DNA from: a virus
Virus record (IMG/VR): IMGVR_UViG_3300032278_002058
Span: 1-20,189 of that record
Reading direction: 5' to 3' (one strand)
Length of the DNA stretch: 20,189 nt
Shown: positions 392 to 19,272 of the stretch, piece after piece
Layout: each line of letters starts with the position of its first letter
Numbering within the stretch: position 1 is the stretch's first letter
Translations under genes and position numbers: made by a program
The notes under the pieces: model-generated
Database searches by the model: none
What the model saw: only the letters and a program-made list of their open reading frames with translations
What the model was told of the DNA's origin: nothing

Positions 392-3300
392 TGGTTAAGG
401 TCCCGCGTCCAGGGAGCTTCAAAGCCCCTCAGCGGCCTCCCAGGGCCGAATTGTTGGCTGCCGTTAGGAAAGGTGCCCCAGTTTCCATAACGTCCCCTGC
501 AGGGCCTCCCAGGCGGCCTCAGGCCCCAAGACCTCCAAGGCTGCCTGCGAGCACACAGCAGGGCGGTATGGGTGGCATTATGGGTGCCGTCATCGACGTA
601 ATAGACAAACCTCGAGCCCTCGTAGCTTCAACAGCCAAAATGGGTATCGACGTACTCCAAGGCGACGCGAGTAGCCCCTGGGATGCGTTAAGACTTGTCC
701 TTGCTGTACCAACGGCGGGTCTGTCGTTAGCGACAAGTGAAGACTGGCGGAAACGTATAAACGATAACTACATGATGAGTGAGCTCCTGGTTGAAGATTT
801 CGGTATGGACCCACAGAGTTTGGCAACTAAAGCTCTTGGCTTCGGACTTGATGTCGCAGCCGACCCACTCATGTACATTCCTGGTGCCGGTGCAGCAGGA
901 CGAGCCGCCGGTATGGGGTGGATGAAGGTCGCCAAAGCATTAGACCAAAGAGCGGTCGGGTTCGCCATGGTTGGCGATATCAAAAAAGCGAACGCTTTGA
1001 AAGAATCTGCGGTTGCTGTAACCAGAAACCGTTCAGTTTTGGCTGCCGGTAGAGAAGGTTTAGAAGAATTAGGGTTCAAAGCTGGGGCATCGCTCGTTGC
1101 GCCAGGCACAGGACGCATTGGGCGTCATATCGTTGAGAAACCATTAAATCTGTTGACAGGGGGCAAGCTCACTAAAGCGTTAGCGAAGAAACGTGCAAAA
1201 CAGATCCCTGATTTCATGTTTGATGGCGCAAAGTATGATGCTGCCCGAGTCGCTGAAAGTTCAGCAGCGTCCGCTCAAGATCAGATCGTTGAAGCGATGG
1301 GGCTTCTTGGTCGCAAACACACTCGCAAACAACTCAACAAATTTTCGAAAGAAATCGTGGACGCTGCACGGTTTGCCAGAACCATGGCCGTTGAACTCCC
1401 AGGGTCCATTAAAGCGTTCGCTGGCCCAATGGGGTACATAGCGGGGCGTCCTGGTCGTTTGTGGGGCACATTGATGAACCAGAAACCGTTCACAGCGTTA
1501 AGCAAAGCGATAGGTGGCACAGCGGGGCCTCTTAAAGCATTGACGAGAAGAAGCAACCCTGACGATGTGATCGTTGGGATGCGTGCTCTTGACGCTCGAG
1601 GTGCCTCAAAAGTTGCGACAAATGTTTTTCGAGCTAGATCTGGCAGACTTTCCCAATCTCTGAAATCATCTGTCGTAGCGAAGAACGCTGACAGAGCGAA
1701 ACGGGGTCTCCCAGAGATTACCCCTGAACAAATAATGTACATGTCGGATACGCCTGCTTCGGCCATTGACCCCGACTTAGCCGATTTTCATGGCGAGCTC
1801 ACCCAATTTTGGGAAGACAAACTCAACTTGTACAACGAGCTAATTGGGCATCGAGGCAGCATCGAAGGGCTCGCAGATGAGCTTTACGCTGCACGTTTCC
1901 TTGACTTGAACACCGAGATCGGTCGAAAGATCAAAGGTATCGAAGTTGAAGACCTGGAAGGTGAATGGGCGTTCCGAGGAATGTCAGGCGACGATCCCAC
2001 CAGGTGGCGTCGCTGGCGTACAGGCGAAACCTATATGGGGGTTCCCCTCGAAGATCCCAATATTGTTGGTAAGTCCATTCGGCAACAGATGCTTGACATT
2101 GGGCGAGAAGTTATAGGCCCACAGTATGAAGACATGTTTGTTAAAGACTTCTTCGAAGTTGTTTCCCGTTACGACAAAGCAATGTCGGACAGGTTCTTTC
2201 ACCAGAAATGGTTTAACCAAATGGAGCAAGCGGGCTTGCTGCAGGTCGGATGGAAAGGCAAAGGCGGCTACCTGAATCTCAGTCGAGAACAGGCTGAACG
2301 GCTTGATGAAATGCTTTCCAATTTGATAGAAATGAGGCGAGGTGATTCCCCTGAATATCAGGCAATGCAACGAAAGATGGCTAAAGCAGTTAATGCTGCC
2401 CGTCGAGCCAACGGACATCTCACAACCAAAAGCGAAGCATTAAACGATTTGAATGACGGTCTGGTCATAATCACCGACCACGTTATCAACTTTGATGAAG
2501 TCATAAAAAAGCATGCAGATTACAGGGTTCTTAACGCATCGCAACGCAAACAACTAGACGATTACGTTAAACGCTTTGACCCTGATAATGAAGAGCGCAA
2601 CCTATTGGAAGCGTCAAGGGCGGGTGAGATTGATCCGCCTTTAAGTGGCGAAGCTAAACGCGTCCTTATCGGTGTCATGCAAGACCAAACCCAAGCAGTG
2701 GGGAAGCTGCGGTGGGTTATGGATGAAACCAAGAAGCTAATAGAACTCGAGGCGGAACGTGCGGGTCGAGTTGTTGATCTCGACGACAGAGAATACATCG
2801 AAATGCTCGACGCTCAACTCAACAACATCGAACATGAGGTTCGAAAAAAAGTAGCAAGAATCGTTGACGACGCCGAAAGCAGTGCCGAGGTGACAGCGTT
2901 CAAAGAACTTGATGCTTTAATGTCTGGTGACGCCGTTGTCCAGGGCATGGAACTGAAAGGTCTTCCCGAAGGTTTTAGCGCACCTGTGGACCTTTTGGGG
3001 AACTATCCGCGCAGAGGATACTTTCCAGAGTGGTCTGCGAGCACCCAAGGGCATCTGGACGAAGCAGACATTGTTGCGTTCAATCCTGATACAGAGGAAG
3101 CACTGATTCGCACCCCCGACAATGCCGGTTTGGTTGGTTTAGAACCTGACGCCGTTTACCGTGTCGAAGCCTACGCTCAGCGCGACGCCCCGTTCGGTCA
3201 TTTCGAAGTCCCACGATCTGAACCAGAATTTAGAGGCAACTTCGGAAGTGACCTCGATAAGCCCTATGTGTTTCGTGTGGAGGAAGCTAAAGGTTCGTGG

Positions 3301-6300
3301 CGTACTCTCAAAAACGAGGTCCAAACCGTTGCAACAAGATTAGAGCGAGATGTAAGGGCCTACTATCGTGGCATAATCGGCGAGGATATCGCTCCTCCTC
3401 CCAAAAAAGTGTGGGCTTACGAGCCAGGTCTCGGGAAAAGGCAGATTAGAGATACTGCACAGGATTGGGATTGGATTGAGGAGATTTCCCCTGAGCGGAT
3501 GCGTGCCATAAGCAATGAATGGTTCGGTGGCCCAGACGCACTCGGAATGGACGATGTTCGTGGCCGACTAGCAGACGCCTATTTGGCGGAAGACTCTGGC
3601 TCAATGGGCTTACAAGTCGGAGATTTCCTTATGGAGTCAACCACTCAGCTAACAGGATTGAGAGCTATCGGTAAAGGAAGAGGTCACGTTCTTGGAAAGA
3701 AAGACTCTTTCGGTACAGTAGACGCAGCAGTCACTCGAATCGCTGAAGACTTAGGTGTTGACGTAGAACTTGTTCGCGCTGTCGCTACTGGTGGTGTGGA
3801 GAACGCTGGGGCTGAAGACCTCATAAAGATAGACCGGTACGTTAAAGGACTTGCTCTTGATGACGAATCGAAAGAACAGATACTTCGAGTAACCGATGAT
3901 CTTGTCACTGATGAACAACACATCGCCGTGGACTCGGGGGTTGCAATAGCAGGCAAACTTCCCCAGCGCTTCGGTAACCCATGGGCGGACACGTCAGAGA
4001 TGGTTATGGGTCCTAGAGCGGCTGATCCTTTAGCTGCGGACACAACATTCGATGACTGGTTCGATGCCGTCGAGGAGCGGGTGATCAGACCTGAAAGCTA
4101 TGAGGGATCTCCTAGTTTATCGACGGTTGAAGCTGACAGAGAACTGTTTGACGCAATTAAGAGGGAAGCCAGGGGTGAGGGTGAGACAGTGATGGAAGCC
4201 TCAGGGCCCAAGCACTATCCTCTCTACGAGATCCCCGTCCTCCTTAAAAAAATCATTGGGGACTTACTTCAGACGGTCGAGGACGGGCTAGGGGATGTAA
4301 TTCCGCCCGAGGTCCTTGCAAGAATGGGTATAGACGATGTGTGGAAATTTTGGGATTCGTTTGGGCGAGAAGGCCCACCCCCAAGTTTTTGGCAGTCGGG
4401 TCAAGCACAAGACCTTTTCCAGTCCTTGACTCGCTCGCTTGCAGACGATGGTTGGATACCAGGCAAAACTGATCCCGTAGAGTATGTGACTCCCAACATG
4501 ATGCGGGCATGGCTATCACTGCCCCTAGGGAGTGGGGCAGATCAGGCATCGGCTCTCATGGCGTTGCACGGTAAGGCAGGTTGGTGGACACCTGAAGAGG
4601 TGAGGATGGCTACTCAACTCAACATGGAAAGTAAGGGTGGGTCCACATCTTCACTCGAGTATTTGCTGCAACCTTTGTATGCGGCAAACAATCAGCTTCC
4701 AGGGGCAGGGGTATTGGCCTCAAGTCTCGAAAATGTGGCACCAGGGTCTTTGACAAGAGAAATAGATTTAGCGGAACACCTCGATGTTATTGGGGCGGAA
4801 CTAATTGTTAACCCAGGGGCCGCCCGAGAGTATTTTGCTCATCTTCAATCCATTGGCCGCAATATTCGAGAAGTGGAAGTTGCCGAGGATCTTTCCGAGG
4901 ACGCGTTGCGTGCCTTTGGGAGTGCCGCTTCGGGTGACTTCCCGTTACCTAGCGGTATCGGGCTCGAAGTGCGAGGGGTACGAGGGAAACACACCGGTTC
5001 TACTATGTCTACCGCAGACACATACGATGATGTTGTTAAAGTCCGTGACCCTTTAACCGACGCAGAAGGCCCACAGAGAGCAACTAATTCCAAGGAACGG
5101 GATGCGGTACAGGCTCTCGAAACAGCCGATAAGCCTGTCGGGGAGATGACTGCGACGGAATGGGGAACTTACCGGCAGCGCTTAGAGAACCAAATTCGTG
5201 ACCAAATTGGTGCCCTCTATCCCCTCAAGACTCGCAGCCGCCCCACTCATATGTGGAGTGATCCGAGCCAGGTCAGATACAGGTTCCAGTCAAAAAACAT
5301 GAGGCCCGAAACGTGGGACGAGTTAATCGCTGGGTTGAAAGAAAAGTATCCACTATTCGGCGACGAACTTGAAAGGTGGGAAACGGAGCTTGCAGCGGGC
5401 ACAACGTGGGGGCAAACACCAGTCGAGGCTCCTCCTGTTTCAGAAATGTTTGGGGATATCTCTTGGACTTCTGAACGTCGAAAAGGTCTCGTCGCTTTAG
5501 ATCATGGACCGATAGCGGTAAAAGAAGGATCGGGAAATGCTAAAAGAGAACTTTGGGAAATTTATCCCGTCAAATTGAAAGCAATGTTGGAAGGGTTAGG
5601 TTACGAGGTTACTGCCACGAGCCCTAAAGGCATCATAGAAGAGGTCTTCGAGAATCGTGCGGGCACCTCGAATCTGTTGCGGGGAGAAATTGGTTCCAGA
5701 GGGCCTCATGCCGCACGAAAACAACCCACTCTGCGACCTTACGATACCTACATTCAGAAAACTCGTGAGGCTCGACTCAGGGGTCCTTTGATTCGGGCAT
5801 TAGCTGGCGACTTGGGGGCAATAATTGCTGAGAGAGAAGGCTTAGCTGCGGGCGTGGAAGCCGCATTGAAGACAGAACTGAGCTTGGCACGGTACAGTGG
5901 CGAAGCCCAAGACATTGTCGACCATTTGATGGAAAGCCACGCATTTCAAAGAGAGTGGATCGGGTCGGGGCATCAGTCTCCAATTACGACATCAAGATTG
6001 AATGACGGGGAAGAGTATTTTGCGCTCAGTAAAGCGTTTGATGATTCTGACTTGCGTAACGACCCCAGATGGAGCGGTCTGCTAGACGAAGTGGAAGAAC
6101 TCCTCGCTCTTGACACCAAAATGAAAACCGATATCGAATCGAAGATCTGGGAAACGATGCCAGATCCACAGAGAATCTCAGGTGGCAACGAGTACCGCCA
6201 GTTTTGGCGTGACCGAGGCTACCAGATGACTGATGAACCACAAATCAAAGGACACGGTTTTCCGTGGGAACCGCCAGGTATGAGACCTACGAGCACTGCG

Positions 6301-8775
6301 GTGCGGGGACGCACCGGTTTCCCTGGGGTTGCCGATCGGCCAGTAGCGTCGCAACTTCCAAGAGATGTGGGACCGAGGAGACCTCCACAGAGGAATCGTT
6401 GGGGGTATGAGAGTCCCGCCCATTCGCGGTTGGGGCAAGATGTGGACCCCAGAGTTGTAGAAAAAAATGTTGAAGCAGCGCTCCCCAAGGGAGGGGATGG
6501 GCTGTTCGGAACTCCGCAGAACAGAACGTACGCCAAAAATGTGGCTGTTCTCAAAGCGTTGGATGAGCTTCTTGGCTCCGAAATAGTTCTCGCGCAGTCC
6601 ACTGATGTGCTTCAGAATTGGCGAGCGGAACAAGTTCGTCTGGGAAAGGTTGAACATATCGTACGGAAGTATGAGCCGTTGTTGGCTGAAATTCGGGCAA
6701 CTTTGAGAACTGCGGAGATAGCGGACGAGGTGGCGGCGGCAGCTACATCTAAGTCGCTTCTGAGCAAAGCGAGTCCTTTGGCTGCGAAAGCAAAGACCGC
6801 TGCGAGAGGGACGACCCGTCGCCCCAGAATCGTTGCTGGAGCTCCCGTCAAGGATCGTGCAACTATCGGCCAGTTCGGGTTAGCTCCTAAACATCTTGCT
6901 GGTGATTTAGCGCTAGATGTGCGGGAACAAATAGCTTTGCGAAACATGTTAGACAACATCACAGCCAAAATTGAGAACGCAAAGTTTCAGGTCGAGCAAG
7001 CTCAAGACGCGGCTGCAGCGACGAAACAGGCAGCAGAAGAAGCAACAGACGATGCTACCGATCTTTGGATGTTGACGATGCTCAAAAACCAGGAAGCGCA
7101 ACAACAAATCAGTGACCTCAGCTTAGAGTTACAGCGGTTAGCGAAATCACCAAACGTCGTCGACCAGATAAGTGCGGCAGCCACACAAGAAGAAGCCATT
7201 CGTGCAGTAATGAACAACCGTGTTATGGGTGCAGCGTTCGCTGACATGTACGGGGAAGCAACGAACAACTTCCTGAGAAGCTACCGGCAAATGAAACCTT
7301 CCCTTGCCCCAGGTGGGCGAGGTGGAGGACCAGGCGGTCCCACCTATTGGATGGGTGGCATGAGCGAAGACGGCTGGAAATTGTTTGAGGAAGCGATCGA
7401 GGCAGGAGCAGGGCTCTCTGATCCGAGGAAACTAAACGGGGCGCTTCAAGCGTACCTGAAAGTTGCCAACTGGTGGAAAGCTCAAGCAGTGGCGTCTCCT
7501 GGTTTCATTATGCGAAACCTGATGGGTGGCGCACTGGTGAACAGTTTGGTCGCCGGTGTAGAAATGGGGACCCACAGTCGGGTCGGTGCCATGGCTCAAA
7601 TGGCGCAGGCAAGAGGAGCGAACGACGTTGTTTACGGTGCACGACTTCTTGCCAACGACGGAAAAACGGTTCGGTTGCAAAACTTGTTTGGGGTTAACCG
7701 TAACGCCACAGCAGACGATTGGGCTGTGTTCGCTGACCTTCTCGAAAGTGGTGTAGTTGGGCAAGGGCAAGCCTGGTCGGAAGTGAAGAGCGCTATCACC
7801 GAAGGTCTTGTGCCTTTGCAACGAACTAGACATTTCGGGTTCATGGAAGGGCTAATACAGGGAAGTTGGAAGCCGACTGCGGATTTCAAACTGTTTACGG
7901 CTGTCCGAACCCAGAACGAACGAGCAGAATTTGTTCTTCGTTCCGCTTTAGGGTTCGACATTATGAAGAAAGGTGGCAGCGTCGAGGACGCCATGCACGC
8001 CATCAACAAATACCATTTCGACTACCAGGATCTCACCAACATAGAACGCAACATCAAAGCCGTCATTCCTTTCTACACCTGGCAAAAAAACATTATTCCT
8101 GTTCTCGTCGAATCTCTCGGCCAGAAACCGCAAGCATGGACAGGGTTTCTTCGAGCGAAAGCAGCTTTGGAACTTGGCGAAGACGAGGAGCGAGTTGTCC
8201 CCGACTACTATGCGGAGCTTATGGGGATGGCGTTGCCTTGGAAAACGAGCGGTTTCTCTGGTGGCAGAATCTATGCGGTACCTGACACCCCGTTCCGTCA
8301 ACTGTTTCAGTTCACAAAAGAGCCAACATCGCCTGCGCGAGAAGTCTCAGGGTCGATCTTTCCGTGGTTCAAAACACCTATAGAGATCTGGTCAAAGAAA
8401 CAACTCTTTGCGGACATTCCATTCAGTGGCAGATACCAGCAGGTGCCCAACGTCTTCTCGGTGACTCCTGGTTTGATGGATATTTTGGGGGCCGCTGGTA
8501 AAGCCAAAAAGAATGCTCGAGGTGAGTGGAAGATGCGTGACCACGACATTTATTTGGTGGAGCAGTTCTCCCCCATTCTTGGTCGCGCTCGACGCCAATT
8601 TCCGAACGAGAAAGCGAAAGAGCGTCGCATGTGGATGACTTGGGTCTCATTCCTTACAGGCGGCGGTTTCCGTGTCAACGACTCCGCTGAACGCAGAAAT
8701 CAGCTTATCAAAGACCAAGTGGGGCATTCGAACGACATGCGAGACAAGAGAGATATCGCAAACCGAGAAGTTTAA
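391..8775 (+). CDS. Giant virion protein, DNA-ejection/internal-virion or polyvalent type (2794 aa)
   Basis: This single uninterrupted frame is by far the largest gene here. Residues 1-57 are Pro/Arg-rich. Residues 60-180 hold a hydrophobic segment ending in a GFGLDVAADPLMYIPG motif, which I recall near the N-terminus of other very large phage structural proteins. A YPRRGYFPEW patch lies near residue 872, and residues 1955-2020 form a Pro/Gly/Arg-rich linker. Residues 2170-2270 are an alanine- and glutamine-rich coiled coil, followed by a glycine-rich hinge at about 2306-2325. The C-terminal part contains SPGFIMRNLMGGALVNSL (about 2368-2385) and VIPFYTWQKNI (about 2558), a pairing resembling the C-terminal regions of phage polyvalent or ejected proteins. 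I see no T7-like RNA polymerase motifs, no lytic transglycosylase motif and no protease motif. It sits directly before the lysis genes, as late structural genes often do. Family membership is inference; a coding virion protein is near certain. Confidence 0.8.
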   Translation: MVKVPRPGSFKAPQRPPRAELLAAVRKGAPVSITSPAGPPRRPQAPRPPRLPASTQQGGMGGIMGAVIDVIDKPRALVASTAKMGIDVLQGDASSPWDALRLVLAVPTAGLSLATSEDWRKRINDNYMMSELLVEDFGMDPQSLATKALGFGLDVAADPLMYIPGAGAAGRAAGMGWMKVAKALDQRAVGFAMVGDIKKANALKESAVAVTRNRSVLAAGREGLEELGFKAGASLVAPGTGRIGRHIVEKPLNLLTGGKLTKALAKKRAKQIPDFMFDGAKYDAARVAESSAASAQDQIVEAMGLLGRKHTRKQLNKFSKEIVDAARFARTMAVELPGSIKAFAGPMGYIAGRPGRLWGTLMNQKPFTALSKAIGGTAGPLKALTRRSNPDDVIVGMRALDARGASKVATNVFRARSGRLSQSLKSSVVAKNADRAKRGLPEITPEQIMYMSDTPASAIDPDLADFHGELTQFWEDKLNLYNELIGHRGSIEGLADELYAARFLDLNTEIGRKIKGIEVEDLEGEWAFRGMSGDDPTRWRRWRTGETYMGVPLEDPNIVGKSIRQQMLDIGREVIGPQYEDMFVKDFFEVVSRYDKAMSDRFFHQKWFNQMEQAGLLQVGWKGKGGYLNLSREQAERLDEMLSNLIEMRRGDSPEYQAMQRKMAKAVNAARRANGHLTTKSEALNDLNDGLVIITDHVINFDEVIKKHADYRVLNASQRKQLDDYVKRFDPDNEERNLLEASRAGEIDPPLSGEAKRVLIGVMQDQTQAVGKLRWVMDETKKLIELEAERAGRVVDLDDREYIEMLDAQLNNIEHEVRKKVARIVDDAESSAEVTAFKELDALMSGDAVVQGMELKGLPEGFSAPVDLLGNYPRRGYFPEWSASTQGHLDEADIVAFNPDTEEALIRTPDNAGLVGLEPDAVYRVEAYAQRDAPFGHFEVPRSEPEFRGNFGSDLDKPYVFRVEEAKGSWRTLKNEVQTVATRLERDVRAYYRGIIGEDIAPPPKKVWAYEPGLGKRQIRDTAQDWDWIEEISPERMRAISNEWFGGPDALGMDDVRGRLADAYLAEDSGSMGLQVGDFLMESTTQLTGLRAIGKGRGHVLGKKDSFGTVDAAVTRIAEDLGVDVELVRAVATGGVENAGAEDLIKIDRYVKGLALDDESKEQILRVTDDLVTDEQHIAVDSGVAIAGKLPQRFGNPWADTSEMVMGPRAADPLAADTTFDDWFDAVEERVIRPESYEGSPSLSTVEADRELFDAIKREARGEGETVMEASGPKHYPLYEIPVLLKKIIGDLLQTVEDGLGDVIPPEVLARMGIDDVWKFWDSFGREGPPPSFWQSGQAQDLFQSLTRSLADDGWIPGKTDPVEYVTPNMMRAWLSLPLGSGADQASALMALHGKAGWWTPEEVRMATQLNMESKGGSTSSLEYLLQPLYAANNQLPGAGVLASSLENVAPGSLTREIDLAEHLDVIGAELIVNPGAAREYFAHLQSIGRNIREVEVAEDLSEDALRAFGSAASGDFPLPSGIGLEVRGVRGKHTGSTMSTADTYDDVVKVRDPLTDAEGPQRATNSKERDAVQALETADKPVGEMTATEWGTYRQRLENQIRDQIGALYPLKTRSRPTHMWSDPSQVRYRFQSKNMRPETWDELIAGLKEKYPLFGDELERWETELAAGTTWGQTPVEAPPVSEMFGDISWTSERRKGLVALDHGPIAVKEGSGNAKRELWEIYPVKLKAMLEGLGYEVTATSPKGIIEEVFENRAGTSNLLRGEIGSRGPHAARKQPTLRPYDTYIQKTREARLRGPLIRALAGDLGAIIAEREGLAAGVEAALKTELSLARYSGEAQDIVDHLMESHAFQREWIGSGHQSPITTSRLNDGEEYFALSKAFDDSDLRNDPRWSGLLDEVEELLALDTKMKTDIESKIWETMPDPQRISGGNEYRQFWRDRGYQMTDEPQIKGHGFPWEPPGMRPTSTAVRGRTGFPGVADRPVASQLPRDVGPRRPPQRNRWGYESPAHSRLGQDVDPRVVEKNVEAALPKGGDGLFGTPQNRTYAKNVAVLKALDELLGSEIVLAQSTDVLQNWRAEQVRLGKVEHIVRKYEPLLAEIRATLRTAEIADEVAAAATSKSLLSKASPLAAKAKTAARGTTRRPRIVAGAPVKDRATIGQFGLAPKHLAGDLALDVREQIALRNMLDNITAKIENAKFQVEQAQDAAAATKQAAEEATDDATDLWMLTMLKNQEAQQQISDLSLELQRLAKSPNVVDQISAAATQEEAIRAVMNNRVMGAAFADMYGEATNNFLRSYRQMKPSLAPGGRGGGPGGPTYWMGGMSEDGWKLFEEAIEAGAGLSDPRKLNGALQAYLKVANWWKAQAVASPGFIMRNLMGGALVNSLVAGVEMGTHSRVGAMAQMAQARGANDVVYGARLLANDGKTVRLQNLFGVNRNATADDWAVFADLLESGVVGQGQAWSEVKSAITEGLVPLQRTRHFGFMEGLIQGSWKPTADFKLFTAVRTQNERAEFVLRSALGFDIMKKGGSVEDAMHAINKYHFDYQDLTNIERNIKAVIPFYTWQKNIIPVLVESLGQKPQAWTGFLRAKAALELGEDEERVVPDYYAELMGMALPWKTSGFSGGRIYAVPDTPFRQLFQFTKEPTSPAREVSGSIFPWFKTPIEIWSKKQLFADIPFSGRYQQVPNVFSVTPGLMDILGAAGKAKKNARGEWKMRDHDIYLVEQFSPILGRARRQFPNEKAKERRMWMTWVSFLTGGGFRVNDSAERRNQLIKDQVGHSNDMRDKRDIANREV

Positions 8776-8798: not shown

Positions 8799-9557
8799 GT
8801 GAAGTATATTTCTCGCACCGAATGGGGCGCAACGCCACCAGCAAAGCCTTTCTCTAGGCTACGCCCATCAAGGGTTGTTGGGATCGTTTTGCATCACAGT
8901 GGTGTGAAGAACGGCCCCTCAGGGGAAAACGCTGTGCGAGCTTATGAGCGTTTCCACATGAAAACCCGTGGGTGGCGTGGTATCGCTTACAACTGGCTGA
9001 TTTCTGACGGCGTTCTTTATGAGGGCCGTGGCGCAGGTGTGATCTCAGGTGCAACCAGAGGATGGAACTCTCGAACTGAAAGCATTTGTTATGCGGGATG
9101 GGGTTCTACAGTGGTTGACGAGCAGAGCCTGCGCCTAATTCGCGCTAAAGTGGAGGAGATCCAGGCACGTTACGCTGGAAAACTGTGGGTTAAACCCCAC
9201 TCGAAACTTGGGTCCACATCGTGCCCTGGGTCTTTTCTTACTTCTTGGTTACAGCAAGGAATGCCGGTGAATGGTTTAGAAAGTCAAGACACGATACAAC
9301 GCGCAGCCGTGTATCTCGAAAGTATTAAAGCCCAGATCGCTCGACGGTCTTTGAGTCGTTGGCGGCGTTCCCGTGGGGAAGCTGTGCGTGTGGTTCAAGA
9401 ACGTCTGGCGGAACGCGGATTTGACCCTGGTCCCGTTGACGGCATTTGGGGGCGCAAAACTACGGCTGCTTTGCGACAATTTCAAAGATCTCAGGGCTAT
9501 TTGAAGCCCGATGGTGTGTGCGGTATAAGAACCTTCCACGCTTTATTTCTTCAATAA
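8799..9557 (+). CDS. Endolysin: N-acetylmuramoyl-L-alanine amidase (PGRP/Amidase_2) with C-terminal peptidoglycan-binding domain
   Basis: This is a 252-residue lysin that cleaves the bond between MurNAc and L-alanine in peptidoglycan. The N-terminal domain (about 1-165) is a zinc-dependent PGRP/T7-lysozyme fold. VLHHSG gives the first zinc ligand (His32 or His33), YNW follows at 64-66, and H134 and C142 in KPH...GSTSCPG supply the remaining ligands. Residues about 189-252 form a PG_binding_1 domain with the pattern VQERL..RGFDPGPVDGIWG..T..ALR.FQ. There is no signal peptide, so export should depend on a holin, and a holin candidate lies 410 bp downstream. The GTG start at 8799 is the only start codon in frame before the conserved N-terminus, and no clear Shine-Dalgarno sequence precedes it, so it may rely on translation from the gene before it, 23 bp upstream. 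Confidence 0.95.
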   Translation: MKYISRTEWGATPPAKPFSRLRPSRVVGIVLHHSGVKNGPSGENAVRAYERFHMKTRGWRGIAYNWLISDGVLYEGRGAGVISGATRGWNSRTESICYAGWGSTVVDEQSLRLIRAKVEEIQARYAGKLWVKPHSKLGSTSCPGSFLTSWLQQGMPVNGLESQDTIQRAAVYLESIKAQIARRSLSRWRRSRGEAVRVVQERLAERGFDPGPVDGIWGRKTTAALRQFQRSQGYLKPDGVCGIRTFHALFLQ

Positions 9558-9835: not shown

Positions 9836-9970
9836 ATGCCTTTGAGGAAAGGGTCTTCAAGAGACACAATCTCCCACAACATAGGGAAACTCATTACTGA
9901 AGGTTACCCGAGGGACCAAGCAGCAGCTATTGCACATTCCGAAGCTGGAAAGTCGAGAAAAAAGAAATGA
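9836..9970 (+). CDS. Small phage protein of the MPL+KGSS...QAAAIA..EAGKS+KK type (44 aa)
   Basis: The 44-residue product begins [20 protein letters not shown] and ends [11 protein letters not shown]. This layout is MPL-K-G-S-S, a central helix, a QAAAIA segment and an AGKS-KKK basic tail. I recall similar short proteins from many tailed phages, including marine ones, where they sit near lysis or structural genes; their function is not known to me. The start is one base after the TAG of the preceding tiny gene, and the stop overlaps the holin start (ATGA at 9967-9970), so the gene is embedded in a coupled cassette. Similarity is from memory of the pattern, not from a search. Confidence 0.75.
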
Positions 9971-10155
9971 CCGAAATGAACAAAAAAGTTGATTGGGGTG
10001 ACTGGTTTGAACGAACAGTCTGGACAGCCGTCGAGGCTGGCCTTGCTATTCTTGTTGTTACTGATGTTTCAAGCCTCAAAGCGGCGGGGACAGCCATGGC
10101 TGCAGCAGCAATCGCAGGCATCAAATCGCTCGCCAGAGCTAAACTCGGACGATAA
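9967..10155 (+). CDS. Putative holin (r1t-like, 62 aa)
   Basis: This is a small membrane protein with a charged, tryptophan-containing N-terminus ([17 protein letters not shown]). Two hydrophobic stretches follow, at about residues 18-33 and 39-56, then a basic tail ([10 protein letters not shown]). The order W-ERT-W-(hydrophobic)-D-V-(small hydrophobic helix)-K-SLAR resembles the r1t holin family found next to endolysins in phages of Gram-positive hosts, which oligomerises in the membrane to release the endolysin. The ATG at 9967 is part of an ATGA overlap; a second in-frame ATG nine bases later could give a shorter form, as dual-start holins do. Location about 400 bp after the endolysin supports the call. 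Confidence 0.75.
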
Positions 10156-13850: not shown

Positions 13851-14368
13851 CCTACACGCTCACGAAGACCCGAAAGGGCTTGGGAGCGGCTAGCAAATGT
13901 GACGACTCCTTCAGCGGTGTTGAAGGCGGAGGGCATGCTGTCAGCCCACAGTCCTTCTCCTTTGAAGTTTTCGTTCCCGCAGTCGTTGCGGAATTTGAAG
14001 TCAGGCCCTTTGCCTCCACCTGACTTTGATCGGCTGTCGCCGAAATTGTTGAATACAGCGCTGGGGTTTGCCCAAAGGAAATCCCACATTGCTTGCTTGC
14101 TTGCATTGCCAAGCATTCCGCTGCTACCTTCCACCGCCGGTGGTGTAGCTAACGTCGGAGTTGCGTTACCGTCAGATTGGGGAACGCTTCCCGAAGTAGA
14201 CGCAACGCTTTTAGAGTTGGAGTCTTCGACCTCTTCCAAGAGTGCCGAAAGAACCGACTCGAATGTGGCTGCCCAAGCGTTTTGATCGCCTGAACCTGCG
14301 TGTATTCGTCCCGCCACATGGGCGGCTGTTTGGATAATCCCCGTTGCGGGGTTGTAATCACTAGCCAT
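13847..14368 (-). CDS. Hypothetical protein with linker and C-terminal W..NP...PDFK...LW module (173 aa)
   Basis: This is not a family I can name. The N-terminal 45 residues are helical. Residues 46-90 are a low-complexity Ser/Thr/Pro/Gly linker. Residues 94-146 form a compact module reading MWDFLWANPSAVFNN, then PDFKFRN and GEGLWAD. I recall short modules with an NP..w.DNR...PDFKHK...ALWL look in phage replication-associated proteins, but cannot place the function. A tethered DNA-binding or protein-docking element is one possibility, and the location between the Cas4-like nuclease and the helicase fits a replication accessory factor such as a single-strand binding protein. The ATG is preceded by TAGGAG at a good distance. 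Gene certainty is high; the function is unknown. Confidence 0.75.
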   Translation of the reverse strand: MASDYNPATGIIQTAAHVAGRIHAGSGDQNAWAATFESVLSALLEEVEDSNSKSVASTSGSVPQSDGNATPTLATPPAVEGSSGMLGNASKQAMWDFLWANPSAVFNNFGDSRSKSGGGKGPDFKFRNDCGNENFKGEGLWADSMPSAFNTAEGVVTFASRSQALSGLRERVG

Positions 14369-14398
14369 GCTTACTCCTAATTGTTTGTGGATGGCTGA

Positions 14399-15196
14399 CT
14401 AAAATGGGTCGTCGCCAAGGAACTTGCCGCGGCAGGTATCCCAGGCTCCGCACCACTTGGGTGAACAATACCACGAATCCCACTGCTTCACTGCGGATGG
14501 TAAGTTCGCTTCGATCTGAACGGCAATCGAAAGGCACAGATCTATGAGTGCCTCATGGTCCGACGCCCCCCTCACCATATGGTTCCACTCCACATTGGGG
14601 GCAGCTATGTGACACAGAGAGAACCGAGGAATTTCTAAGGCCCACGTATAAACATGGGACTGAAGGTCTGATCTTTTCGGCAACCACATGTCCTGAGCAC
14701 GAGGGGTTTTGGATGGGTTCTTCCAATCAACGAGCCATTCGTCTTGCACCCAGTCGCACGTTCCAGAGAGACGGATGACACGATCCTTGTCCTCCCACAG
14801 CACCTTATTGAAATGCTCCTCCACTGCGTTGGGACAGCTAAGTTCGGGGAGCACATCAGTGAACCACACTTCGAGGTTGCCTCGCACAGTGTCCCGCACA
14901 AAGTCGGGGTCCTTCATCCAGACTGTCCCGCCCTCCGCACCGAAAAGTTCGAACTCGTTGTTTCCGCAGTCCAGCAGATCTTCGACAGCGGGCTGCCTGT
15001 TGGTCTCCAACCATTCGTTGCCGAACCATTCGATAGCACCGTGGACGGCGTTCCCCCGCACCAAGTTGCTGTTGTTCACCTCAGGGGGCATGAGCCCCAG
15101 GTGTTTACGGCGGGCGGACTCAGGGCAAAGGAACCATTGCTTTAAGAAGCTCTGCCGAAACTGGTGCTCATGTCTGGGTGCTGTTAGGGCTGCCAT
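14399..15196 (-). CDS. Cas4/RecB-like PD-(D/E)XK exonuclease with iron-sulphur cysteines (265 aa)
   Basis: The order of motifs matches the Cas4/AddB/RecB nuclease group. The N-terminus has QSFLKQWFLCPESARR with C24 and then GNAVHGAIEW (H52). Next comes LSGTCDWVQDEWLVDWKNPSK, which gives the catalytic D148 and the D157-W-K159 motif, followed by the QSHVYTWAL helix (Q179). The C-terminus has WYCSPKWCGAWDTC, with C244, C249 and C255. C24 with these three is the four-cysteine set that holds a 4Fe-4S cluster in Cas4 and AddB. The enzyme likely degrades DNA ends and feeds strand exchange or replication restart. No cas1, cas2 or repeat array accompanies it, so a CRISPR role is unlikely. The start overlaps the zinc-ribbon gene by 13 bp. 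Confidence 0.88.
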   Translation of the reverse strand: MAALTAPRHEHQFRQSFLKQWFLCPESARRKHLGLMPPEVNNSNLVRGNAVHGAIEWFGNEWLETNRQPAVEDLLDCGNNEFELFGAEGGTVWMKDPDFVRDTVRGNLEVWFTDVLPELSCPNAVEEHFNKVLWEDKDRVIRLSGTCDWVQDEWLVDWKNPSKTPRAQDMWLPKRSDLQSHVYTWALEIPRFSLCHIAAPNVEWNHMVRGASDHEALIDLCLSIAVQIEANLPSAVKQWDSWYCSPKWCGAWDTCRGKFLGDDPF

Positions 15197-15486
15197 AGTG
15201 GACGTCCTTCTTCCTTGTTTTCTGCCAGTCGAGCGTCTGCCGCATCTTCTTCGGACCAGCGGTAGTCACTGCCTTCTTCTTCTTCGACTTCGTGTATTTT
15301 GTCGTAACACGGCGGACAGAAGTAATGGCCCGCTCGAGCTCCTCGCAGGATCTCGCGTTCATCTGGGTCGAAGTAGCCCCACACGTTCTGCAGGAGGTCC
15401 CCCCCAATGTATTTGTCCCAGTCTTTCTTCCACACAGTGACCGTGTCGGTCTGTCCACACATATGACATGTCGCTGAAGCCTGCAT
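15184..15486 (-). CDS. Zinc-ribbon protein of the phage CxxC...REILRG...CPPC type (100 aa)
   Basis: Two cysteine pairs, CHMC at 7-10 and CPPC at 57-60, should form one zinc site. Between them is WDKYIGGDLLQNVWGYFDPD followed by EREILRGARAGHYF. The order Y..G..LQ...GYF.PDEREIL.G....CP.C resembles a small zinc-finger family that I know from many phages (iQ..fP.L...REfLisG.cp.CwD); its function is not established. The C-terminal 40 residues are very acidic. A good AGGGAGA site precedes the ATG. It is the first gene after the inverted-repeat element and overlaps the nuclease gene by 13 bp, so it heads the replication block. Confidence 0.82.
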   Translation of the reverse strand: MQASATCHMCGQTDTVTVWKKDWDKYIGGDLLQNVWGYFDPDEREILRGARAGHYFCPPCYDKIHEVEEEEGSDYRWSEEDAADARLAENKEEGRPLWQP

Positions 15487-15500
15487 ACTGTCTCCCTTGA

Positions 15501-15550
15501 CGCTAGCTGCTAGCGCGCCCCGACGGGGCGGCTCGCGCTCTCGCGCTAGC
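15501..15550. repeat. Nested inverted repeats and tandem octamers in the 80-bp gap between two minus-strand genes
   Basis: Four overlapping symmetric elements are visible. CGCTAGC-T-GCTAGCG (15501-15515) is a perfect palindrome around one base. GCTAGCGCG (15509-15517) pairs with CGCGCTAGC (15542-15550). CGCCCC-GAC-GGGGCG (15516-15530) is a tight hairpin. CTCGCGCT occurs twice in tandem (15532-15539 and 15540-15547). The outer and inner stems share bases, so they are alternative folds. There is no T-run on the minus strand after the hairpin, so this is not a standard intrinsic terminator. It lies just before the ribosome-binding site of the zinc-ribbon gene; an operator, an RNA processing site or a weak attenuator are the options. 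Confidence 0.65.
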
Positions 15551-15566
15551 TCATTCTAACGAACGC

Positions 15567-15911
15567 TCATCGGCGTGTGTGGGACCCACAACTCCACCAC
15601 CGAAAGGAACGGCCCCCCGCACCCCATATATGGTACGCCATCGCTGCATTGGTGCGGACCTGATAGCGGGCCCCCCACATATCCTTACCAAAATGGGCCG
15701 CCCCCCACCAATTCTGGTTGATCTGCCAAACAGAATGGTCAACTCCGTTGTAAGCGCGCCGGTTGAACTGGCTCTCGCACCACGCGACACTTAGAGCCTC
15801 AACGACGGGCCAGTCGTAGGAGCTTGCTGCCTCAACAATGTCGAGGTGGTCGGGGCTTGAAGCGTTAACTCCAGCGATGTCGATGAGTAGCCAGATAGCT
15901 ACCCAACTCAT
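15567..15911 (-). CDS. Exported lysozyme-like (transglycosylase/Rpf-fold) protein (114 aa)
   Basis: Residues 1-17 (MSWVAIWLLIDIAGVNA) look like a short signal sequence ending in a VNA cleavage site, although the basic n-region is missing. The remainder follows the lysozyme-like fold. VVEALSVAWCESQFNRRAYN carries the likely catalytic E46, VWQIN at 61-65 is the conserved strand, and WGAGGRSFRWWSCGS closes the domain. C45 and C108 could form a disulphide. Such domains cut the glycan strand in lytic transglycosylases and resuscitation-promoting factors. At 114 residues it is essentially a bare catalytic domain. It overlaps the preceding gene (ATGA at 15908-15911). Its place in the early or replication side, away from the endolysin and holin, is unusual. 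Confidence 0.78.
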   Translation of the reverse strand: MSWVAIWLLIDIAGVNASSPDHLDIVEAASSYDWPVVEALSVAWCESQFNRRAYNGVDHSVWQINQNWWGAAHFGKDMWGARYQVRTNAAMAYHIWGAGGRSFRWWSCGSHTRR

Positions 15912-16120
15912 TCGTCAAGAGGAAACAATGGCACTATGTTGTCAGGAAGGTCCCAGTGATTGGTACCGACGATGCCAGCCATGATGACAGCAGCCAACGC
16001 CGTTTCCCAGTCGTTAGCTTTGGCAGCGCAGAACTCGGACATGTGTCGCATCATGTGAATCCCGTCATGTACGTCATCGCACAAAGCGAGTAGTAAGTCC
16101 TGTTTCTCTGTTTCGTTCAT
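15908..16120 (-). CDS. Hypothetical protein (70 aa)
   Basis: The sequence starts MNETEKQDLLLALCDDVHDG and contains HMMRHMSEFCAAKANDWETALAAVIMAG, so it is probably two or three helices with a moderately hydrophobic second half but no convincing membrane span. Two cysteines and four histidines are present without a clear zinc pattern. I do not recognise the family. The four-base overlaps on both sides (with the four-cysteine protein upstream and the lysozyme-like protein downstream) strongly support it as a real gene in this set. No function can be inferred beyond co-expression with its neighbours. Confidence 0.7.
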   Translation of the reverse strand: MNETEKQDLLLALCDDVHDGIHMMRHMSEFCAAKANDWETALAAVIMAGIVGTNHWDLPDNIVPLFPLDE

Positions 16121-16362
16121 CGTTCTATCCCCGCTCTGGCAAACTGCTCATCGCTCCATGGGAGATGACTGTTCGCTCGAATGATGTCCACTTGAGAGAA
16201 CGCCGGTTCTTCTTTCGTGCCACGGGAGGCGTGCCCCCCTGCACCGACACGGCGGTAGTACTCGGTGCATTTAACGCAGCGATTTTTTTTGTATCCGTCA
16301 CACACACCACCACACACAGGTAGATACGCTGGTTTGTGGTGGCCTCCCTTATGTTCGCTCAC
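16117..16362 (-). CDS. Small four-cysteine (zinc-binding) protein (81 aa)
   Basis: The N-terminal half carries CGGVC and CVKC pairs (C17, C21, C29, C32) with flanking Lys/Arg/His residues, including HKGGHHK at 4-10. This is a compact zinc-knuckle-like arrangement with an eleven-residue span between C21 and C32. The C-terminal half, FSQVDIIRANSHLPWSDEQF, looks like a helical segment with an S-D-E-Q helix cap. I do not know a named family. Overlaps of four bases at each end (ATGA) place it firmly in the minus-strand set. A nucleic-acid or protein-contact role is plausible for a small zinc protein in a phage early region, but that is inference. Confidence 0.72.
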   Translation of the reverse strand: MSEHKGGHHKPAYLPVCGGVCDGYKKNRCVKCTEYYRRVGAGGHASRGTKEEPAFSQVDIIRANSHLPWSDEQFARAGIER

Positions 16363-16589
16363 CCTTCACCACCCAATACTGGATCAGGGCTATAGGCCAT
16401 GCGAGCTAGTCGATCCCTAGCGTCGGCCACGTTGTAGTGCGCCATACCGTCAGGCGTGACCCAACATTTCCTGCCGTCCTCTAAGGCAATCACGATCGTG
16501 TACCTTTCGTCACCTTCATACAGCATGTCGTTCGGACATTTTGCTAAAAGGTGACAGTTACATACTTTAATGACTTCTGATTCTCCCAT
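16359..16589 (-). CDS. Hypothetical cysteine-containing protein (76 aa)
   Basis: The N-terminus holds CNC at 10-12 and CP at 18, followed by DERYTIVIALEDGRKCWVTPDGMAHYNVADARDRLARM. That reads as a small beta-rich unit (YTIVIALEDG-KCWVTPDG) followed by a helix. A fourth cysteine is at position 42. I do not recognise a family. The ATG at 16589 has a clear GGAGG seven bases upstream, so this gene does not depend on coupling with the membrane protein gene 38 bp before it. It overlaps the next gene by four bases. Confidence 0.72.
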   Translation of the reverse strand: MGESEVIKVCNCHLLAKCPNDMLYEGDERYTIVIALEDGRKCWVTPDGMAHYNVADARDRLARMAYSPDPVLGGEG

Positions 16590-16627
16590 GAGGGTGCCTC
16601 CGTTGCTCGTTGGCTCCCCATATTACA

Positions 16628-16882
16628 CTATGCCCCCACCAATTTCCGTAATGGGTCAGGGTGCCCCCCAAACAGATGCCAAGTGAGCGCCCCCCACATA
16701 ACCACTAACAGTTCCCTGCACCCTGGCCGACGGGCAGCCCCAACAAAAGCGGCGGACATAGTTTGTCGTCTCGATGACAACGCCCACCCGTCGAAGGCGA
16801 TGACCACCAGGGCCACGATCACCCAGCCAACAATTCCACCACGGTCATTAGTAGGCACACATACTTGCCGCCGCTGTCCCAT
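16628..16882 (-). CDS. Small membrane protein of a common actinophage type (84 aa)
   Basis: A first hydrophobic segment, GGIVGWVIVALVVIAFDGWALSS (about 15-37), is followed by TMSAAFVGAARRPGCRELL. A second, weaker hydrophobic stretch then reads VVMWGALTWHLFGG. The string D.WAL....TMSA.F..A...P......W..LT.HLFG matches a short family I recall from many actinobacteriophages, where it is uncharacterised and often lies near early genes. AAGGA is placed about eight bases before the ATG at 16882. It is the first gene of the long minus-strand set and is divergent from the DUF932 gene, with 54 bp between the starts, so promoters for both directions must lie within or close to that gap. Confidence 0.78.
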   Translation of the reverse strand: MGQRRQVCVPTNDRGGIVGWVIVALVVIAFDGWALSSRRQTMSAAFVGAARRPGCRELLVVMWGALTWHLFGGHPDPLRKLVGA

Positions 16883-16893
16883 ATGTGTATCCT
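16865..16893 (+). promoter_or_regulatory. Candidate promoter for the right-arm plus-strand genes
   Basis: TTGCCG (16865-16870) and TATCCT (16888-16893) are separated by 17 bp, giving four of six matches to each of the -35 and -10 consensus boxes. They lie about 45 bp before the DUF932 start. The sequence overlaps the first codons of the divergent membrane-protein gene, so the two transcripts could interfere. This is a consensus match only and could occur by chance. Confidence 0.3.
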
Positions 16894-16936
16894 TGTAACT
16901 GTGGGCCAGGGAGGCTCACCACAATAAGGAGACATT

Positions 16937-18094
16937 ATGTCCGCAGACATTTACGACGACGACCTAGCCGTCTACGCCCGAACGGCGTGGCATCAAAAAG
17001 GGTTTGTCCACGGCGAACTACTCGACAACGACGACTACTTGAATCACCCGTGGCCGTTCCACGCCGAGCGAGGCGAACTGTACATCCACAACCCAACATG
17101 GGTTCAGTGGCAGCAACTACTCACCGACGAAAAATTTCACGCCAGTGCTCTACGAACTCAGAGCGGTGCGTTAGGCCCCCAAATGCGTGCGACACGAGTC
17201 GCCCTTCGAGCTCACCCGTTGAACGTAAACAAAATCAACGGCATGCCAAGAGACCCCGATGAGTACATACCGTTAAGCAGTTTCGAAGGCGTCACCCAAA
17301 CACAGGCGATCCGCCGATCAGACAACGGCTACCCACTAAACATCGGGATCACCGAGCATCGAGCCCTCACCCAATACCACATGTTTGACGAAGTGGTCGC
17401 AAGCCTCTTGGAACGAGGATTCGCTACCGGTGTCGAATCGAAAGGCACCCTGCAGCATGGCCGAAAAGGGTATGTGACTCTGCAAGTGGGTGAACCTATC
17501 GACATTGAGAACTATTCGAAAATCAATCGGTACTTCACACTGGCCGACGCCCACGACTCGACTGTGTCACTGTCGGCTCGACCCACACTGGGAGTCGTAG
17601 TTTGTGCGAACACGTTCGCCGCCTATGTGTTGAACAACGACACAGCCACCTGGACTATCCGCCACACACGCAACGCCCAAGAATACTTGGACGCCGCCAT
17701 CGGGATCTTTTACGAGAACCTGGAACTCCAGCAAGAGATCAACAAAGAAGTGGAACGGTGGATTGATACTTCATTCACTGAGGGACAGTTCATGGATATG
17801 ACCAGGAACCTGATGCCACCTTGCCCCGAAATATCTTCCGAAGTGGAAGGGTCCGCCCGAGCACACACACAGTGGACCAACCGGTTCAAAGCGATCACCG
17901 CCCGATACCGTGGCGATGACCTCGACGGCTTCATCAGGGAAACAAAGTGGGGAGCGTTGATGGCGATTCAAGGCTACGAGCAGCACGTACAGAAAGGCAA
18001 AGGACGCTCCACCCAGGGCAAGCATGTGGACCAATTAGTATTCGGCGACATGCCCCTCACCACAAAAGCAGCACAACTGCTGGTGCAAGTATGA
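16937..18094 (+). CDS. DUF932 / phage-plasmid-like protein (385 aa)
   Basis: The product has the length and layout of the DUF932 (TIGR03299-like) family. An N-terminal RTAWHQKGFV matches the conserved tryptophan-glycine entry of the family. A long central beta-rich region includes YPLNIGITEHRALTQYHMFDEV and the VVCANTFAAYVLNND stretch, which in family members reads CxNt. The C-terminal part has TKWGALMAIQGYEQHV, equivalent to the family's T.W...NA..EY.DH segment. DUF932 proteins are abundant in phages and plasmids; a link to DNA metabolism is proposed but the biochemical role is unsettled. AAGGAG is five bases before the ATG. The stop overlaps the next gene's start (ATGA at 18091-18094). Confidence 0.87.
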   Translation: MSADIYDDDLAVYARTAWHQKGFVHGELLDNDDYLNHPWPFHAERGELYIHNPTWVQWQQLLTDEKFHASALRTQSGALGPQMRATRVALRAHPLNVNKINGMPRDPDEYIPLSSFEGVTQTQAIRRSDNGYPLNIGITEHRALTQYHMFDEVVASLLERGFATGVESKGTLQHGRKGYVTLQVGEPIDIENYSKINRYFTLADAHDSTVSLSARPTLGVVVCANTFAAYVLNNDTATWTIRHTRNAQEYLDAAIGIFYENLELQQEINKEVERWIDTSFTEGQFMDMTRNLMPPCPEISSEVEGSARAHTQWTNRFKAITARYRGDDLDGFIRETKWGALMAIQGYEQHVQKGKGRSTQGKHVDQLVFGDMPLTTKAAQLLVQV

Positions 18095-18321
18095 GCGATT
18101 GTGTGCGGTCGGGGTTCTGTTGCAAGCAGGGTGTTTGCCCGTTCGGAACGTGGGACCACGCCGCACGCCAATGCGCCCACCTCATAGGTGACCGGCCAGG
18201 CAACTACGAGTGCGGCATCTACGAGGACATCAGACAACACGAAAGTGCAATCTGGTCTCCAGCGTTCGGGTCAGGGTGCAGCAGCACACTGAACCCCGAT
18301 AGGGTGCTCCTCATCGCATAG
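18091..18321 (+). CDS. Seven-cysteine small phage protein, SGFCCK..CPFG...PAFGSGC type (76 aa)
   Basis: The ATG sits in an ATGA overlap with the DUF932 stop. Seven cysteines occur at 4, 10, 11, 16, 28, 41 and 63 within the pattern C....SGFCCKQGVCPFG...QC..L........YECGIYEDI......PAFGSGC. I recall this pattern from short proteins in tailed phages and marine metagenomes; the spacing suggests one or two metal sites, zinc or iron-sulphur, but the role is unknown. A longer upstream frame starting at 17947 exists, but that part is a shadow of the DUF932 gene. Co-translation with DUF932 is likely. Confidence 0.8.
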   Translation: MSDCVRSGFCCKQGVCPFGTWDHAARQCAHLIGDRPGNYECGIYEDIRQHESAIWSPAFGSGCSSTLNPDRVLLIA

Positions 18322-18576
18322 CGCCCCCCATATAGCTCCCCCCCACATATATTACGGGGGAACCTCAGTGGCCCTCGATCCTCCCTCGGTCGGGGGTCGC
18401 TGTTCGTTTTCGACCCAAAATAGAGCTCCCGCGTCGACGCTCGACACCGCCGCCGCCGACAACTACCCAGGCCCACATGCCAAATCGCCAATACCGCCGC
18501 AAATCTAAAGGCTGGTATTTGTCCCACCCGTGTGGTCTAATAGGTACGAACAACTAGCGACCAGGGAGGCCGCATC
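18322..18576. other. Non-coding stretch with C-tracts, a palindrome and a hairpin, upstream of the coiled-coil gene
   Basis: This is the longest gap between genes before the terminator. It holds C6 (18324-18329) and C7 (18338-18344) tracts, the latter able to pair with GGGGG at 18356-18360. GGGTCG (18394-18399) can pair with CGACCC (18411-18416), and GCGTCGACGC (18431-18440) is a perfect palindrome. TAATAG at 18538-18543 could be a -10 box, but no good -35 box lies at the proper distance. Two minus-strand frames cross it, but their Arg/Gly/Cys-rich translations do not look like proteins. It probably carries the promoter and perhaps an operator for the next gene. Confidence 0.5.
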
Positions 18577-19272
18577 ATGCAGATAGAAGTCACACTCGGG
18601 AACACCTTCATAGAAATAGAAGAAGGCCATCTGGAGGCAATCGCCGAACGAATACCTAAAGGCGAGTTGACCTACGAGTCGATAAGAGAAAACGCCGACC
18701 AGTTAGCCGAAACAGTCGCCGACCGAATCAACTTTGTGGATGAAGACTCAGCGGGCGAGATAGCCGACCAAGTTGTTTGGGATCACTCACGAATCGACGA
18801 CATCTCAAGCCGTGTCGAAGAACTCGAAGGCGACAACGAGAATTTCTCCGACTGGTGGAACAACAACAAACACAGCGAAGTAGCCGCGCTGCTTGGTGAG
18901 TACCGACCAGGCAACGGATGCGACGCCGGTGACGCATTCACTGAGGCCCTGGAACGTGGTCTCGAATACATCAAAGAAAACAAAGACGTTGATGAGGCAC
19001 CGAGCGGCGAACTTGCCCCAGGGGGAACGTGGGCCCGTGTTAGCGAACTCGAAAAAAAGGTGGACGAACTCCAAGAGGTTCTCGCCGTCGCATTAAAGGC
19101 CGTTTCGTTTGGTGGTCGAGTAGCTGGTAGCCAACTAGGTACCGCAATGTTTGAGGAGGCCACTAAGCGAGCCACCGAAAACAGTCGCAACGCCTACGAC
19201 AACGACGTAGCCGACCAGCAACGCCGAACTGACATATCGGCACTGTTCGCGGCCCTAGAAGGTGAACTGTGA
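18577..19272 (+). CDS. Acidic coiled-coil hypothetical protein (231 aa)
   Basis: The protein is very acidic (Glu and Asp make up roughly a quarter) and mostly helical. A short N-terminal beta strand, IEVTLGNTFIEIEEGHL, precedes helices. DISSRVEELEGDNENF and RVSELEKKVDELQEVLAVALKAV (about residues 151-173) are heptad coiled-coil segments. Only one cysteine is visible and there is no membrane segment. No enzyme motif is seen, and I do not recognise a family; DNA mimicry or a scaffold for other proteins would suit such charge, but that is speculation. AGGGAGG is seven bases before the ATG. Its stop TGA overlaps the GTG start of the next gene, so it leads a three-gene group. Confidence 0.8.
   Translation: MQIEVTLGNTFIEIEEGHLEAIAERIPKGELTYESIRENADQLAETVADRINFVDEDSAGEIADQVVWDHSRIDDISSRVEELEGDNENFSDWWNNNKHSEVAALLGEYRPGNGCDAGDAFTEALERGLEYIKENKDVDEAPSGELAPGGTWARVSELEKKVDELQEVLAVALKAVSFGGRVAGSQLGTAMFEEATKRATENSRNAYDNDVADQQRRTDISALFAALEGEL

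Follow-up and report, generated by a model that had tools for sequence, protein, structure and literature searches.

The window, a 20,189-base virus record from a marine-type bacteriophage, encodes a miniature lysozyme-type protein of 114 residues (hereafter the mini-lysozyme) that lies among replication genes and, by analogy with Tgl of staphylococcal phages, may serve as an accessory lysin that helps the main endolysin, a role to which we give slightly less than even confidence. The novelty lies in the unusual conserved leader and unusual placement of this putative phage accessory lysozyme; accessory lysozymes as a kind are already known. Annotators usually infer phage lysis from nothing but the holin-endolysin cassette, and here, in two phage groups, the replication operon can house a second, probably glycan-cutting enzyme at a distance from that cassette. 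Should this enzyme be an accessory lysin, the lysis genes of these uncultured phages are under-annotated; should it act early, it gives a way to study how phages cope with slow-growing bacteria and their walls; and whichever role holds, its conserved leader is a testable oddity.

The mini-lysozyme gene (15567-15911, minus strand; lysozyme superfamily, SLT_3-like) had been picked out as a 114-residue reading frame in a sequence-only reading of the window, and the frame is a real gene: across the 28 pairs formed by eight sequences (the window and seven homologues) omega was 0.046-0.256, with dN of 0.004-0.182 and dS of 0.014-3.579, and such low pairwise values mark a selected protein and not a chance frame. 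Its start overlaps by 4 nt the end of an upstream gene for a 70-residue protein without family hit (15908-16120, minus strand), which makes translational coupling probable. The next gene encodes a small cysteine-containing protein of 100 residues with no family over cut-off (15184-15486, minus strand), and after it comes a PD-(D/E)XK exonuclease (14399-15196, minus strand), the marker of the replication operon; the minus strand also encodes a DnaB-like helicase and an AEP-type primase. The window's lysis genes are on the plus strand, where the earlier reading had put them: an endolysin with Pfam matches to Amidase_2 and PG_binding_1 (8799-9557), among whose Pfam matches there is no glycosidase family, and a holin (9967-10155; phrog_443, E 1.6e-5). 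Its placement of the mini-lysozyme gene on the replication-side strand, away from these genes, was likewise borne out.

The intergenic stretch that follows the mini-lysozyme gene (15487-15566, minus strand) holds a TATAAT-like box at 15553-15558, then a G+C-rich segment and the start of the next gene. In an alignment of seven loci, from which the near-copy L003 was left out, the box reads TAGAAT in the window and TATAAT in the other six (L001, L002 and L004-L007), and a near-palindrome in the last codons of the mini-lysozyme gene, TGTGGGTCCCACA, is kept in six of the seven. From its sequence, the replication genes may have a transcript of their own that starts in the box region; because a promoter scan found no sigma-70-type pair in 14000-18600, the box counts as a conserved motif only. 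The box separates the mini-lysozyme gene from the next one, and the joint expression with small zinc proteins named in the sequence-only reading is presumed. A structured RNA at 15484-15620 gave no Rfam match at gathering scores, and the RNAalifold consensus of that segment, in which 3 of 28 pairs had two-sided changes with a covariation term of +0.17, lent it no support. Two other plus-strand genes of the window may be recorded here: one at 16937-18094 for a DUF932 protein (E 3.5e-30), with relatives in several related contigs (cluster c9), and one at 391-8775 for a protein of 2794 residues that takes up about 42% of the window and has no Pfam family over cut-off.

Judged by its sequence, the mini-lysozyme is a lysozyme-superfamily protein whose nearest Pfam family is SLT_3 (PF18896). 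SLT_3 was the best family for an alignment of 26 sequences that includes the window protein: all 26 matched it at E <= 1 (best E 5.7e-10), while at the same threshold 18 of the 26 matched SLT and four matched the c-type lysozyme model. The window protein alone scores below the curated cut-offs of both SLT_3 (19.1 bits, cut-off 27) and SLT (15.9 bits, cut-off 21.3), and its SLT_3 match spans residues 36-107, with the conserved leader outside; the SLT_3 cut-off was passed in 5 of 23 records and also by the proteins of L086 and L091. Searched against the PDB, the family profile found c-type lysozymes with a best E of 4.8e-4 and only lysozymes below that among the matches listed. These results uphold the earlier description of the protein as lysozyme-like.

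The residues expected of an active site are conserved. W7, D11, C45, E46, S47, A53, D58, Q63, W69, W106 and C108 are invariant in all 26 sequences, and in the alignment with c-type lysozymes the Glu of the latter falls on E46 and the Asp of their D-Y-G strand on D58. The corresponding minus-strand codons are at 15774-15779 for C45 and E46, the presumed catalytic glutamate, at 15738-15740 for D58, at 15723-15725 for Q63, and at 15588-15590 for C108, presumably the disulphide partner of C45. The glutamate is therefore as intact as the earlier reading had it; the VWQIN strand, also called intact, is so at its Gln (Q63), while the neighbouring strand residues vary. In four deep relatives (L086, L091, L092 and L093) the Glu and Asp stand 17 residues apart, as E35 and D52 do in hen lysozyme; in the remainder the spacing is 12 or 14, the window having 12. 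The mini-lysozyme further differs from the c-type lysozymes (GH22), which have four disulphides, in being a phage gene product with a shorter domain and one invariant cysteine pair. Cysteines number two in 15 of the 26 rows and four in 11, and no row has an odd number.

A lysozyme fold is likely, a judgement taken from these alignments rather than from the model. The AlphaFold model built from 19 sequences was of moderate quality (pLDDT 60.7, pTM 0.62), and an earlier one from nine sequences was unusable (pLDDT 43.9). The sequence-only reading had proposed a structural comparison with Rpf and SLT domains. Foldseek returned no match to the mini-lysozyme model at E <= 0.001, and a second-look aligner returned eight entries (Slt70 twice, the catalytic domain of a Ralstonia chitinase three times, guinea-fowl lysozyme, phi6 lysin and an Rpf domain) at Z of 3.2-6.0, values that by the tool's own note may reflect a common arrangement. 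All eight are of lysozyme, transglycosylase, GH23 chitinase, phage lysin or Rpf type, and we take them to share the lysozyme fold.

The hydrophobic leader (codons 1-16, MSWVAIWLLIDIAGVN; 15864-15911, minus strand) appears to fit neither a classical signal peptide nor a definite transmembrane helix, and the description of the protein as signal-bearing was not confirmed. The window leader has no K or R among its first six residues (as in 16 of the 26 rows; the other ten have one), D11, which like W7 is invariant in 26 of 26, lies inside it, and its best 19-residue Kyte-Doolittle mean is 1.33, within a span of 0.78-1.54 for the 18 complete-start rows of a 19-row alignment. The 26-row alignment holds no conserved signal-peptidase site (AXA). 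Because the leader is unlike a textbook signal peptide, export is something that we infer. Mean column entropy over 19 rows, nine of which are close relatives of one another, was 0.41 in the leader core (residues 5-11), 0.89 in the catalytic stretch (residues 31-69) and 0.90 in the whole leader (1-16); ordinary signal peptides usually lack such sequence conservation. The identical-codon fraction among nine representatives was 0.33 in the leader versus 0.37 and 0.34 in the domain, so that synonymous codons are as variable in the leader as elsewhere and the leader is conserved as protein; constraint at the DNA level was ruled out by this nine-representative comparison. The two invariant cysteines, the never-odd cysteine count and this protein-level conservation are hints of export, and the invariant pair together with an RpfB-like cysteine layout would argue for a location outside the cytoplasm; in RpfB the cysteines form a disulphide.

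The gene was found in 44 distinct viral contigs belonging to two phage groups, A and B. It lies on the replication-gene strand in 33 of them; in 10 it closes the operon that bears the endolysin gene, and in one it lies elsewhere. The first two positions we call early and late, labels read from gene content. Upstream of the operon marker gene (c4 in group A, c23 in group B) are 31 of the 33 replication-strand copies. Group A, the window's kind, numbers 12 contigs. In 11 the gene shares its strand with the exonuclease gene c4 and lies upstream of it; in L009, the exception, it adjoins a C5-methylase gene and c4 is on the other strand. An independent scan with the exonuclease as query recovered eight group-A loci, seven of them carriers, and the eighth says nothing on presence because its sequence starts 203 bases ahead of the exonuclease gene. 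Accessory genes near the mini-lysozyme (L009:8402-10333, L059-L062, L133 and L134) encode a PAPS-reductase-like protein, c38, and a C5-cytosine methylase; c38 occurs on either strand relative to the group-B marker c5, and its copy in L061 matches PADLOC SspD (E 1.4e-16).

Group B is defined by marker gene c5, which encodes an RNase_H_2 protein. Among the best 80 of 202 loci in a scan with c5 as query at least 32 are carriers, a lower bound because many loci are incomplete at contig ends; in 20 the gene lies upstream and in two downstream of c23 on the replication strand, and in 10 it is on the opposite strand at the endolysin-operon end. These 32 contigs hold 25 different frames (26 of 33 if L146 is added). 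L146 was left out of all counts because its match is weak (E 8e-4) and its protein is a different, longer one: encoded at L146:8143-8691 (minus strand) on the early strand of a group-B contig, this protein has an SLT match over cut-off, starts right at the contig edge, resembles a classical signal peptide in its opening stretch (LATPAQA) and may be a functional substitute. The reading of c23 as a Cas4-like exonuclease was rejected, since it had no PDB sequence-search match and no BLASTP similarity to the window exonuclease; we accordingly name no function for c23 and recognise the group-B operon by the single-stranded-DNA-binding protein gene on the c23 strand (identified in L048, E 2.1e-16). 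Among the 80 loci are 18 contigs of at least 28 kb, all searched whole. Nine hold a copy, and in the other nine none was detected despite the presence of c5; all are linear and may be incomplete. One of the contigs lacking a detected copy, G013, has an SLT_3 match inside a frame of 576 residues.

In group B the late position had at first seemed to prevail, an effect of having retrieved those loci with the mini-lysozyme gene itself as query; the c5-query scan reversed this (22 copies on the early strand versus 10 late). Where endolysin and mini-lysozyme are both visible, they are on opposite strands in all eight group-A loci and in 14 of 24 group-B loci, the other 10 having them on the same strand. 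In the late loci the genes that run from c10 as far as the mini-lysozyme follow one another almost without gaps, and the gaps between endolysin and c10 are small, or about 200 bases where gene calling skipped the small gene c25, which we take as a candidate holin. The late label changes three times on the gene tree as drawn, and since well-supported branches force only one change, all ten late copies may go back to a single relocation.

From the position of the gene in the window the sequence-only reading had argued for a job other than final lysis. This does not follow: ten of the 44 copies end an endolysin-bearing operon, so that early placement is unnecessary for the gene's job and off-cassette placement is common but not obligatory, and Tgl has an early-type promoter yet is interpreted as an extra endolysin (PMC7150955). 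The particular jobs which that reading named, altering the host wall, blocking superinfection or helping another exported factor, may nonetheless apply. We suggest instead that the mini-lysozyme would work as a miniature muramidase, built from a conserved hydrophobic leader and a lysozyme-type domain of some 90 residues in which the Glu/Asp pair is intact and one cysteine pair is invariant. The leader would send it to or across the membrane by a host secretion route, the C45-C108 disulphide would form outside, and the enzyme would cut the glycan strands of the host wall, whereas the main endolysin, an amidase released by the holin, would cut another bond type. Made early or late, the mini-lysozyme might remain tethered to the membrane or otherwise restrained; once the holin collapses the membrane potential, it and the amidase endolysin together would destroy the wall. 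An endolysin built of amidase and PG-binding domains counts for a complementary glycan cutter, and an accessory lysin suits the late-operon copies (10 of 44) better than an early-only role does.

The closest experimentally studied parallel is Tgl of the kayviruses (Staphylococcus phage MSA6 and relatives), a secreted lysozyme-like enzyme with an early-type promoter, whose producing cells lyse in the presence of nisin, and which its authors read as an additional endolysin acting with LysK, partly on the basis of its location in the lytic module (PMC7150955). Tgl and the mini-lysozyme would share a phage lysozyme-like domain, an N-terminal export region (putative here) and a gene separate from that of the amidase endolysin, and the Glu and Gln of the mini-lysozyme match Tgl in alignment. 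Tgl lacks an Asp at D58, however, and its 230 residues include a middle region and a signal peptide of the AXA kind, unlike the mini-lysozyme with its 114 residues and no wall-binding region (PMC7150955). Profile comparison by hhalign was marginal (probability 20%, E 1.1e-3; 0.65% and E 0.088 for the window amidase as control), so that we would say the mini-lysozyme works like Tgl and not that it is a member of the Tgl family. The precedent is also weaker than at first look because tgl lies a few genes from lysK on the same strand within the lytic module, whereas most carriers have the mini-lysozyme off the cassette; the window gene is outside any lytic module, and the 10 late carriers of the 44 have it in one only in the wide sense of sharing an operon with the endolysin gene.

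Microbacterium phage Shocker encodes a VanY-type protein that cuts peptide bonds and an SLT-type protein, gp38 and gp39, in separate adjacent genes that are both annotated as endolysin, and by analogy we count this pair as a precedent for an accessory lysin, Shocker gene 37 resembling the C-terminal part of the window's giant protein (27% identity over 40% of the query); gp39 differs in adjoining gp38 and has no meaningful profile similarity to the mini-lysozyme family (hhalign probability 1.1%). In SAR endolysins a weakly hydrophobic segment at the N-terminus sits in the membrane at first and leaves it later; the leader may be compared with it in hydropathy (best 19-residue values of 0.78-1.54 in 18 rows). 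Against an accessory lysin we count the 33 of 44 copies off the lysis genes, the nine of 18 long group-B contigs with no detected copy, the uncharged n-region of the leader in 16 of 26 rows, the want of a conserved signal-peptidase site and of a wall-binding region, the marginal similarity to Tgl, the empty Foldseek search, and the late copies' possible origin in one move.

The main rival to an accessory lysin is an early modifier of the host wall, made along with the products of the first genes and exported, which would loosen or remodel the wall, exclude superinfection or stimulate a slow-growing host as Rpf does; we regard this as possible but, on present evidence, unlikely. Its strength is position, 33 of 44 carriers having the gene on the replication strand, 31 of them upstream of c4 or c23, and a residue layout shared with RpfB, in which the relevant residues are C291, E292, Q310 and C355 (PMC10716330). 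The Cys-Cys and Glu-Gln spacings are 64 and 18 in RpfB and 63 and 17 in the window protein, and throughout the family a Cys directly precedes the Glu, the Gln follows 17-22 residues on and the second Cys 60-68 after the first. Two further papers add that a wall-cutting motif in the TM4 tape-measure protein aids infection of stationary cells (PMC1796659) and that four of six host rpf genes rise in Rhodococcus infected by phage WC1 (PMC10986025). The mini-lysozyme differs from Rpf in carrying a c-type-lysozyme-like D-x-x-x-x-Q strand, and the Rpf family PF06737 was unmatched in 12 members at E <= 10 and in 26 at E <= 1, in searches where HMMER filters drop most weak matches; a distant relative, the lyZ1 protein of MW202577, weakly matched the Rpf model (E 0.0062, below cut-off). 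The ten copies that end an endolysin-bearing operon are poorly placed for an early-only role. A bolder form, which we hold to be improbable, is that a first-made, exported, stand-alone mini-lysozyme acts like Rpf on the living host wall, keeping slow-growing cells growing and permissive or blocking rival injection through a reshaped wall, with the W7/D11 leader as a dedicated targeting device.

The leader itself could be the working part: in a membrane-associated enzyme the W7/D11 helix would bind a partner such as the holin, the host divisome or a secretion protein, and the lysozyme domain would act locally. The low entropy of core residues 5-11 relative to residues 31-69 and the invariance of W7 and D11 speak for this, but the hydrophobic stretch is short and weak in the 18 complete-start rows and no partner was found, and we consider the idea quite improbable. 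A lysozyme-fold protein with no enzymatic role, for example an inhibitor or binding module, is very hard to reconcile with presumed active-site Glu, Asp and Gln that are invariant in 26 of 26 sequences under purifying selection. Least probable is a lysozyme that belongs to the virion and enters the cell along with the injected DNA: many virion proteins contain lysozyme-type domains, the ten late copies lie in the endolysin-bearing block and a separate frame of 711 residues in one related contig matches SLT_3 weakly, but a 114-residue protein with its own leader, beside replication-type genes on its strand in group A, makes a poor candidate.

The hosts of both phage groups are probably Actinomycetota, to judge from gene content. 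WhiB-family matches occur in 5 of the 18 long group-B contigs (four over cut-off), and among 14 control genomes only Corynebacterium was positive; the group-B late-block protein c6 matched 31 records, 29 of them Streptomyces phages. A WhiB-bearing phage fragment has been reported and assigned to the marine actinobacterium Ca. Actinomarina (PMC3861242). For group A we infer an actinobacterial host only weakly: WhiB was found in none of four long contigs, the C-terminal part of the giant protein matched three records, two of them from the one Microbacterium phage Shocker, and the window endolysin says little on the host because it matches 317 records of mixed hosts. A phage-integrase family gene in a group-A relative (L009:5660-6592, minus strand; E 1.1e-17) suggests that some of these phages are temperate.

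Beyond the carriers, tblastn confirmed no relatives in host genomes in two genome-contig scans, which used short peptide patterns that can miss distant copies, and a plasmid search with one member (L001) gave no match. The window protein had no hit in PHROGs, NCBIfam or PADLOC, and no description of the family was found in the titles and abstract openings of open-licence literature; PMC9004378 contributed nothing on the question. In INPHARED, tblastn gave no match for the window (E <= 0.01), L009 (E <= 1) or L122 (E <= 0.1) and weak matches for L015 (best E 0.1), L086 (E 0.01) and L091 (E 0.02, to 'lyZ1' of MW202577). The lyZ1 protein is a credible distant relative (hhalign E 4.8e-8); its gene lies at L156:1973-2419 in MW202577, a Manatee Spring phage, where plus- and minus-strand gene blocks meet.
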